From NCBI GenBank assembly GCA_029981855.1, contig JARRCS010000015.1, positions 1-64,000 of the forward strand: a stretch of 64,000 nt of DNA, given 5' to 3'. Every line of letters begins with the position of its first letter. Within the stretch, counting starts at the first letter, position 1. This document shows positions 47,417-60,636 of this stretch, in pieces. A model generated the notes under the pieces. It did no database searches, was not told the origin of the DNA, and saw only the letters and a list, made by a program, of their open reading frames with translations. The DNA is from Halanaerobiales bacterium (GTDB lineage Bacteria; Bacillota; Halanaerobiia; Halanaerobiales; DTU029). Made by a program: the position numbers and the translations under genes.

Positions 47417-47549
47417 TAGCAACATGATTCATAATTTTCTGACCTCATACTCTCTGTGTAGTATGGGCCGCCGTGATTTTTACATCCAAGCGTAATATAG
47501 TTTGTTACCTCCCTATATTTTGGATATGCTAATCACCCGAATCGGCCAA

Positions 47550-47681
47550 TTAGTGATAGAGGACTTTCACCTCATTAGATTTCCAACCTTGACAGCTGCT
47601 CCTGCAAGATTTTTGCTCATCAATAGCCGACACAAAATTATTTACACTCGCCCAAAAAATGCTCCATTGATAATTTACCAT
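47550..47681 (-). pseudogene. truncated MazF/PemK-like toxin
   Basis: A 43-codon frame starts at an ATG overlapping the stop of the ribbon-helix-helix gene (ATGGTAA). It reads MVNYQWSIFWASVNNFVSAI, similar to the IFWADLNP...GSEQ start of MazF-like toxins, then loses resemblance and stops. The remaining 47417-47549 has GAGGTGAAAGTCCTC-type sequence and no gene. This is a likely dead toxin. Confidence 0.4.
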
Positions 47682-47947
47682 TCTTCTTGCCTCCCTGCTA
47701 CTTCATCATCAGAAGGCTCAAATAATTCCATGTTCTCCTCAAGGTCTTTCATAAACAATGGATCTTTTGAAGCTTCTAACATCTCTTTATACAATTTCTC
47801 TTTTTCCATCTTTTTTACATATTCCTCTAATGTTTCTTTAACTCCAGCATTAATAGAAGGTATATAATTCATTTTCGCATATTCTCTAATCTTTTCTAAA
47901 AGTTCTGTTGGCAAAGAAAAAGTAGCATTTTTAAGTTTAGAACCCAT
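47675..47947 (-). CDS. ribbon-helix-helix antitoxin-like protein
   Basis: The 90-residue protein has an N-terminal ribbon-helix-helix DNA-binding region, KNATFSLPTELLEKIREYAK followed by a second helix. An acidic C-terminal tail, EENMELFEPSDDE, is typical of toxin-binding parts. It resembles antitoxins of MazEF/PemIK-like pairs. Its downstream toxin partner appears truncated. Confidence 0.75.
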   Translation of the reverse strand: MGSKLKNATFSLPTELLEKIREYAKMNYIPSINAGVKETLEEYVKKMEKEKLYKEMLEASKDPLFMKDLEENMELFEPSDDEVAGRQEEW

Positions 47948-48044
47948 AAAACCACCCCATTTCTATTGTATATTTATATTGTATAATATGACACAAAAAT
48001 ATACAATAGAAATATACTAAATTTTATGGGCAGTTATTAAAAGC

Positions 48045-48400
48045 AAAAAAGTGCCTCTTCTCCAATTTTCTACAGTACAATAAATTCTAGACTATTGAAT
48101 TTCATCCGGGGAAGGTTTATAATAGTACTTGGGATTGGTGCCATTATTATTACTCCTTTCTGTGGTGAGATTAGAGTAATAATTCGGTGTCAATCCCTTT
48201 TTTCCTTTAATAATACTTACTTGTTTTTCCCTGTGACAGTTAAAATATATATTTTTTAGAATCTGTCAAGGGCACGCGACAGCGCGGGCGAAGCCTTTAC
48301 CCTTGTACTGATTATAAAAAATATATTACAATTCTAAACCAGGGAAATAACAGGGATCATGCTAAAATTCTACTGTAATACTTTGGAGAAGAGCCCTTTT
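48045..48400. repeat. large multi-arm palindromic element
   Basis: The outer stem pairs CCTCTTCTCCAA (about 48052-48063) with TTGGAGAAGAG (about 48383-48393), with an inner TACAGTA/TACTGTA pair. One internal arm pairs GGGATTGGTGCC plus ATTATTACTC with GAGTAATAAT plus GGTGTCAATCCC. A longer arm pairs the 48230-48271 segment, from CCCTGTGACAG to GTCAAGGG, with 48299-48343, CCCTTGTAC to ACCAGGG, around a GC-rich loop. No open frame fits. It could be a MITE or a structured RNA. Confidence 0.6.
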
Positions 48401-48438
48401 CTGCTATTTATCTTATTGCTTAATTTATTTTGCTTAAT

Positions 48439-48891
48439 TTATTGAAAATGATCATTCCATTTATCAACTCTCTGATTATAGGCAAATGGAGAAAAATCTT
48501 TCAGCCAATTCATAAATTCATTATATAGCTTAGTTTCCTTTAAAAATTGATGTTCCTTTTCTAACGCTCTCTCATGGGGACTATCACTTCCATCAAGCTC
48601 ATACTGTTCTTCAACCTTTTCATGGTATACAATTACTTCAAAAAACTTTTTTGGCACATGATCTGAAATAAAAATTAATCCAAAAGGTCTGATAGCAATT
48701 TTATCCTTTACATAATCATGTGGAACAACCCATACAGGTCTACCTAAAATAATTAAATAATCATTTTTATTCATATATTCTAGAATATTTTTATGAATTT
48801 CTTTGGTATCACAAAATCTTGTTTTATCCTTAAAAAACTTTATCTTTGCTTTATCAATGTCAAATTTAGAATTAGTATTTGAACTTGTCAT
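48439..48891 (-). CDS. hypothetical protein, 150 aa
   Basis: The protein includes NDYLIILGRPVWVVPHDYVK, FGLIFISDHVPKKFFEVIVY and then HEKVEEQYELDGSDSPHERA. The HE..E and SPHERALEKEH cluster of histidines and glutamates could bind metal, but I recognise no family. It is monocistronic beside the palindromic element. Confidence 0.6.
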   Translation of the reverse strand: MTSSNTNSKFDIDKAKIKFFKDKTRFCDTKEIHKNILEYMNKNDYLIILGRPVWVVPHDYVKDKIAIRPFGLIFISDHVPKKFFEVIVYHEKVEEQYELDGSDSPHERALEKEHQFLKETKLYNEFMNWLKDFSPFAYNQRVDKWNDHFQ

Positions 48892-52159: not shown

Positions 52160-52390
52160 TTACCCAAACATGAAACCTTTCTTAGCAAAAAGCTTTATGC
52201 AAGCATCCACCACCTCGGGATCATAAAGGAAACCCCTATTTTTGGAGATTTCATCCAGAGCCTTGTCTATGCCGCAAGTCGGCCGGTAAGGCCAGTGAGA
52301 AACCATAGCCTCGACAACATCAGCCACTCCTATAATTCTCGTTTCCAGACGTATATCTCCAATCTTTAAGCCCGAAGGATAAAGACGATA
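52160..52390 (-). pseudogene. HD-GYP C-terminal fragment
   Basis: The frame reads YPSGLKIGDIRLETRIIGVA, DVVEAMVSHWPYRP and YDPEVVDACIKLF. This is the last third of an HD-GYP domain, starting at the GYP motif's YP. The HD metal site is missing. It joins the glutamine-amidotransferase fragment near 52380. Confidence 0.75.
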
Positions 52391-52590
52391 AGCTCTCCAA
52401 AGTGAAAATTTTCCCATCGTTCATCGGTCAATCGTCTTGTAGCAACAATAAATCCTGTTTGAGTTGGTTCTTTTTCTTCTGCAAGATCAATCTCAAAGTC
52501 TTCATCTAATAATTTAACTTGACCATATGGAGCTTTACGATGAACAAAACAAAGACCATTGTAGCCGTTTTTGTCATAATAACAAAACAA
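52366..52590 (-). pseudogene. class II glutamine amidotransferase C-terminal fragment
   Basis: The frame reads YNGLCFVHRKAPYGQVKLLD, TGFIVATRRLTDERW and FGELIVF, resembling the C-terminal part of YafJ-type class II glutamine amidotransferases. The catalytic N-terminal cysteine region is absent, and the end runs into HD-GYP sequence. Confidence 0.5.
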
Positions 52591-52764
52591 GTATTCTCCA
52601 TCGGAGAAGAGGCATTTTTCCCACTTTATTATTCAACAAAAGTCCCTCAACTCCTTTTATAAAATCTAAATACTACACATAGTTGTCAATCCTTTCTTAT
52701 AAACATTTTTTATGTTATAATATATTCTATGAATTAAAAATCATCTATTAAGGGACTGATTTAG

Positions 52765-60099: not shown

Positions 60100-60636
60100 T
60101 TAGCTTCCACCTCTGTGTGTGGTAATTGTGTCCTTCGCAAAGGTCTCCTTGTGTGACTGCCTTCTCTCTGCAACCGTTACGTTGCTTCATTGATACTATT
60201 CAGTCATCCGACTCCCTGCCTCTCATTTGCCTTCCTTGCTTGGTTATCGCTTGTAGGGCATACCCATTCTCAGGAAGAAACAGGGTCTCCCGGGTTGCCG
60301 CTAATTCTCAATGTTAACGTGCCGAGCTCTTAGACCCCGGAGCGTCAGTAAAGACTCACCAAAACGCCCATACTGATATTGCCTTCTGTGTGTGTAACCA
60401 CATCGGCCTTTCTCGAGTATATTTCGAGGCTCAATCACTTCAGCTTTAGCTTTCGGCCCGCTATTTTGCCGTCCTACGCTTAAAACTTTCAGTTGCCTGA
60501 AAGCCTCCAAGAACTAGCTACAGGGCTGCTGGTTAGGCTTTACCCTGGTGGGACTTACACCCACTAGAATTAGCGACCTTGCCCGGCCGCACTACACAAA
60601 ACTTTAGACATTCTCGGTTAATCCGCTCTTAGTCAG

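Follow-up and report, generated by a model that had tools for sequence, protein, structure and literature searches.

Masking of a start region should reduce translation, and the insertion sequence IS10 (of Tn10) is protected from impinging transcription in that its transposase start site is held in a hairpin in read-through transcripts. The transposase of IS200 is preceded by two stem-loops, the second of which lies over the ribosome binding site, while the first stops impinging transcription (PMC3196728). In ISPpu9, the ribosome binding site is likewise thought to be buried in a structured 5'-UTR and to be freed by an antisense RNA, and weakening of that structure raised expression 26-fold (PMC8450116).

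In the present work, we have analysed a palindromic locus in a 64,000-nucleotide stretch of DNA from a Halanaerobiales bacterium (hereafter the window). Our analyses indicate, with a probability of about 0.8 for the two parts taken jointly, that positions 48053-48395 are a non-autonomous internal-deletion derivative (MITE-like, 343 bp) of an insertion sequence of the ISL3 family, and that one arm of the palindrome (arm A) masks the transposase start site. The features of the locus are as follows.

48053-48395, minus strand: whole element, 343 bp; left end at 48395 and right end at 48053 in the transposase orientation
48371-48395, minus strand: left terminal inverted repeat, GGCTCTTCTCCAAAGTATTACAGTA (from sequence and five copies of the left end in the genome)
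48247-48326, minus strand: arm B, in which an AT-rich stem encloses a pair of small GC-rich hairpins, GGCTTCGCC and CGCGCTGTCGCG
48131-48197, minus strand: arm A, a hairpin in which an upstream segment pairs with the Shine-Dalgarno site and the start codon
48153-48159, minus strand: Shine-Dalgarno-like AAAGGAG, 8 nt before the start codon and partly paired in arm A
48070-48144, minus strand: open reading frame of the transposase remnant, MAPIPSTIINLPRMKFNSLEFIVL followed by the stop (from sequence and the parent gene in L014 and L021)
48053-48077, plus strand: right terminal inverted repeat, GCCTCTTCTCCAATTTTCTACAGTA (from sequence and further genomic copies of the right end)
48019-48435, minus strand: insertion target; the joined flanks make an AT-rich terminator-like hairpin (AGCAGAAAAG/CTTTTTTGCT)

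The locus resembles members of the ISL3 family (PF01610; NCBIfam transpos_ISL3) in its terminal repeats and in the organisation of the leader of a single transposase; relatives make 8-bp target duplications, whereas the window copy is deleted to 343 bp and shows none. Like bacterial MITEs and internally deleted IS derivatives it is short, has both terminal repeats, is multicopy and lacks a complete gene, but it differs from them in keeping a large structured leader, hence its appearance as a three-armed RNA. The start-site hairpin, which pairs ribosome binding site and start codon with sequence upstream, recalls IS10, and so does the promoter predicted within it for some members of the ISL3 clade; however, the two families are unrelated, no such promoter is evident in the subgroup of the window, and the ISL3 case is predicted from sequence. 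The ISL3 leader also shares with IS200 the presence of two hairpins, the second covering the ribosome binding site, but the first hairpin of IS200 halts impinging transcription, whereas neither strand of arm B has a T-run. A 5' structure that buries the start site is common to ISPpu9 and the ISL3 element, although no antisense RNA is known for the latter. A puzzling palindrome becomes in this way a member of a known mobile-element class, of which the conserved hairpin is the useful part. The hairpin conserved over the ISL3 start site adds a new case to a known principle of regulation and suggests that translational self-restraint, studied in IS10, IS50, and IS200, is used in another large family; no earlier description of it was found in the literature searched, which lay mostly outside subscription journals.

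Fold, Ends and Layout of the Element

The preliminary description had reported a three-armed palindrome of about 350 bp, and its existence is borne out by independent inverted-repeat detection (outer arms 48048-48081 and 48367-48400; inner arm 48247-48266 and 48307-48326) and by folding of both strands, which had been proposed as a check. The predicted fold of region 48020-48430 has an energy of -122.9 kcal/mol on the plus strand (z -8.4 against dinucleotide shuffles) and -119.7 kcal/mol on the minus strand (z -8.0), no shuffle being as good on either strand. It consists, as described, of an outer stem and two long internal arms, and the GC-rich loop is placed in arm 48247-48326.

The outer stem is formed by the terminal inverted repeats (GGCTCTTCTCCAA...TACAGTA and GCCTCTTCTCCAA...TACAGTA). 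These repeats (GCCTCTTCTCCAA and GGCTCTTCTCCAA at the two ends) are imperfect, of ISL3 type and common to the full-length relatives, and the ends of the element can be placed exactly at 48053 and 48395 because the repeats set them. The order on the minus strand is left repeat, arm B, an A-rich stretch, arm A, the start codon at 48144, 24 codons and a stop, and the AAAGGAG is invariant among close homologues. Since the stop of the remnant lies inside the right terminal repeat, as does that of the full-length element, and the leader is in this order, the locus is an internal-deletion derivative, which has kept both terminal repeats and the whole transposase leader while nearly all of the transposase gene is gone. 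No match to the element was obtained in Rfam, or at the DNA level in phage and plasmid collections.

The view that the palindrome lacks a gene is correct in that no complete gene is present, but the element does contain the 24-codon transposase remnant. Similarly, what had seemed more elaborate than a simple MITE is a MITE-like ISL3 derivative, and as such ordinary; the elaborate interior is the transposase leader. The MITE marks that had been put forward as a test were recovered in part, viz. several copies with shared ends, without a target duplication at the window copy.

Copies in the Same Genome and Full-Length Relatives

The genome to which the window belongs (2.59 Mb in 39 contigs) was searched and contains several partial copies of the element. 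All of the five left ends found terminate at window base 48395, and additional right ends match the window from 48053 onwards. Most of these copies run into contig ends, as expected from repeat collapse in assembly, and the window copy alone is assembled end to end. A second derivative (C3) joins the N-terminus of the transposase to its C-terminus, and at the end of another contig (C22) an ISL3 C-terminus adjoins the same terminal repeat. Neither an intact parent transposase nor an intact N-terminal zinc ribbon was found in this assembly, perhaps because the repeats have collapsed at contig ends.

A full-length relative (L021/L066) is present in a Halobacteroidaceae MAG of the same class (G049, contig PWGV01000106.1), where the same leader precedes a transposase of 401 aa. 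This protein matches Pfam DDE_Tnp_ISL3 (PF01610) with 231 bits, HTH_Tnp_ISL3, and NCBIfam transpos_ISL3 (NF033550) with 322 bits against a cut-off of 180. The ISL3 origin assigned to the window copy rests on such homology.

Two further occurrences of ISL3-type termini were observed. On contig C18 of the same genome (L051, 2441-3404) an ISL3-type terminal repeat directly adjoins a CRISPR-like array of 14 repeats (ATTTCAATTCCACTCTGGTGCGATTAAAAC) with 66-67 bp spacing, and a one-mismatch copy of the terminal repeat core (TCGGAGAAGAGGC) at 52601-52613 (plus strand) of the window, for which no second end was noticed, may be due to chance.

Insertion Site

The flanks of the window copy, when joined, form an AT-rich hairpin, so that the element seems to occupy the loop of a palindrome resembling a terminator, which stands after a minus-strand open reading frame (48439-48891). 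Perfect 8-bp target duplications are seen in six copies of ISL3 relatives (L055, L058, L061, L064, L071, and L095), but neither the window copy nor the full-length G049 copy is flanked by one. For the window copy, a recent and clean insertion is thereby made less certain, while the ISL3 origin is unaffected.

On the other side of the element, a perfect 17-nt inverted repeat (47959-48013), possibly an operator, lies just upstream of an open reading frame of 90 aa (47675-47947, minus strand) that has no Pfam match.

Arm B

Some pairs of arm B are changed on both sides in related copies, although the sequences are few. One copy (C25) lacks the arm entirely, the loss being exact and leaving one of two ATATATTTT direct repeats. 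Hairpins resembling arm B are also found beside one gene each of IS110 (L017), ISLre2 (L158), and a further ISL3 element (L156), as well as in apparently plain intergenic DNA of related genomes (L155 and L160). Both the exact loss and the scattered hairpins would fit a palindromic element that inserted independently and is nested in the IS, which we regard as unlikely. However, the ISL3 elements of G049 and G040, the full-length one included, hold a diverged arm B at the same position, and because relatives keep the arm at this place, slippage between the direct repeats is the simpler explanation for its loss from C25. A further and rather doubtful conjecture is that arm B represents one recurrent type of hairpin which the unrelated ISL3, IS110, and ISLre2 elements of this bacterial class carry near their ends, possibly as an exchangeable module that insulates them from outside transcription or aids movement.

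The possibility that arm B is a normal terminator was considered and rejected on account of the missing T-run. A scan of the genome contigs for an exact arm B pattern returned zero matches, the pattern being too strict.

Arm A

Upstream pairing of the start site is seen in L014, L021, and many more distant ISL3 genes. A segment located about 50-75 nt upstream is the partner of the start codon, of the first codons, and of the Shine-Dalgarno site in part or as a whole. The loci with such a hairpin carry record names from diverse groups of bacteria (viz. Halobacteroidaceae or Halanaerobiales, Clostridiales, Syntrophomonadaceae, Nitrospirae, Acidobacteria, WOR-3, Hydrogenedentota, Planctomycetota, Proteobacteria, and Desulfobacteraceae), and their transposases are mostly 34-60% identical. 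Within a set of 18 elements, which were chosen after their folds had been seen and whose start sites were picked by script, the pairing is stronger than in shuffled upstream sequence, with z -6.8 in both the window copy and L066 and z -2.1 to -5.9 in the remaining relatives. As a control, 314 other genes from the same loci gave a mean z of -0.25, with 1% of them below -4. Cognate arms pair with a mean energy of -27.2 kcal/mol, and arms exchanged between elements with one of -17.1 kcal/mol; in 100,000 permutations the cognate pairing was never equalled. Two pairs of arm A are changed on both sides within the close group, and the upstream arm, which has no coding duty, nevertheless tracks changes in the start region. 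As this comparison shows, arm A has been kept by selection in one ISL3 clade across several phyla. Its effect is most likely to repress translation of the transposase; in the window copy it is a relic.

The idea that a start-site hairpin is a general feature of ISL3 was rejected. Among 38 other, mostly more distant ISL3 genes, the mean z was -1.0 and the hairpin was mostly absent, hence arm A belongs to one clade of the family. The leaders of ISKox3, ISEc53, and ISPpu12, judged by eye, also lack it.

These results bear on the suggestion that the locus is a plain MITE, the arms of which are the palindromic leader of the parent IS and serve only as DNA, either in transposase binding or as a cruciform, without a role as RNA. 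The terminal repeats, the several copies and the lack of coding capacity agree with it, and so does arm B, which unlike arm A involves no start site. However, members of the clade have arm A centred over the Shine-Dalgarno site and the start codon, while its sequence and loop length vary, and a DNA binding site would conserve sequence rather than pairing; we consequently consider a role in DNA alone improbable. The proposal of a free-standing structured RNA of about 350 nt, to which we assign very little probability, is already largely refuted in spite of the very stable fold on both strands, in view of the absent Rfam match, ends that coincide with the terminal repeats of an IS, homologues that are IS leaders joined to a transposase gene, and the C25 copy that is entirely without arm B.

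The large structured RNA of the preliminary description survives only in the narrower sense that arm A looks like a selected mRNA hairpin, and of a recombination hairpin, its other suggestion, no sign was seen. The compensating differences it had noted within the one copy are in part ordinary mismatches of the terminal repeats; real compensatory changes are seen only between homologues.

Promoter Placement and Proposed Mechanism

Returning to masking of the start site by arm A, a transcript of the autonomous parent that contains the full hairpin would hide the ribosome binding site and the start codon, and little transposase would be made. Whether the hairpin acts only on read-through transcripts depends upon where the promoter lies. 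Compared with shuffles, promoter-like sequences placed for a start in the loop are over-represented (combined p 9e-6), unlike those with an upstream placement (p 0.65), in a test that is partly confounded, since the arm complementary to ATGTCC resembles a -35 box and may supply part of the signal. A predicted promoter with its start inside the hairpin is present in L070, L071, L072, L077, L081, L092, and L095, the best candidates being TTGACA-17-TATCCT in L070 and TGGACA-17-TATAAT in L072. Removal of the upstream arm raises the predicted average openness of the start region from 0.28 to 0.43 unpaired. In this part of the clade, the element's own promoter in the upstream arm would yield a translatable transcript, beginning in the loop and without the blocking arm, while read-through transcripts from neighbouring genes would keep the blocking arm and remain untranslated, as in IS10.

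In the subgroup of the window, no good promoter with a start in the loop was found; the best match, a TTGACA, lies upstream of arm A within arm B. Nor is shortening of the transcript predicted to open the start site further. Hence, the IS10-like step may not apply to this subgroup, for which we infer translational masking alone. The window element itself would be mobile only with transposase supplied by another ISL3 copy.

Other Features of the Window

The window contains a match to Group II intron D1-D4-6 at 60325-60557 (minus strand; 138.6 bits against a gathering score of 49) and a weak match to group II intron D1-D4-4 at 47445-47576 (minus strand; 42 bits against a gathering score of 49). 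No open reading frame for an intron-encoded protein was noted near the latter, which is possibly a truncated intron. A degraded gene is suggested at 52160-52590 (minus strand) by two short open reading frames that overlap, one of them with the end of an HD domain (PF13487).
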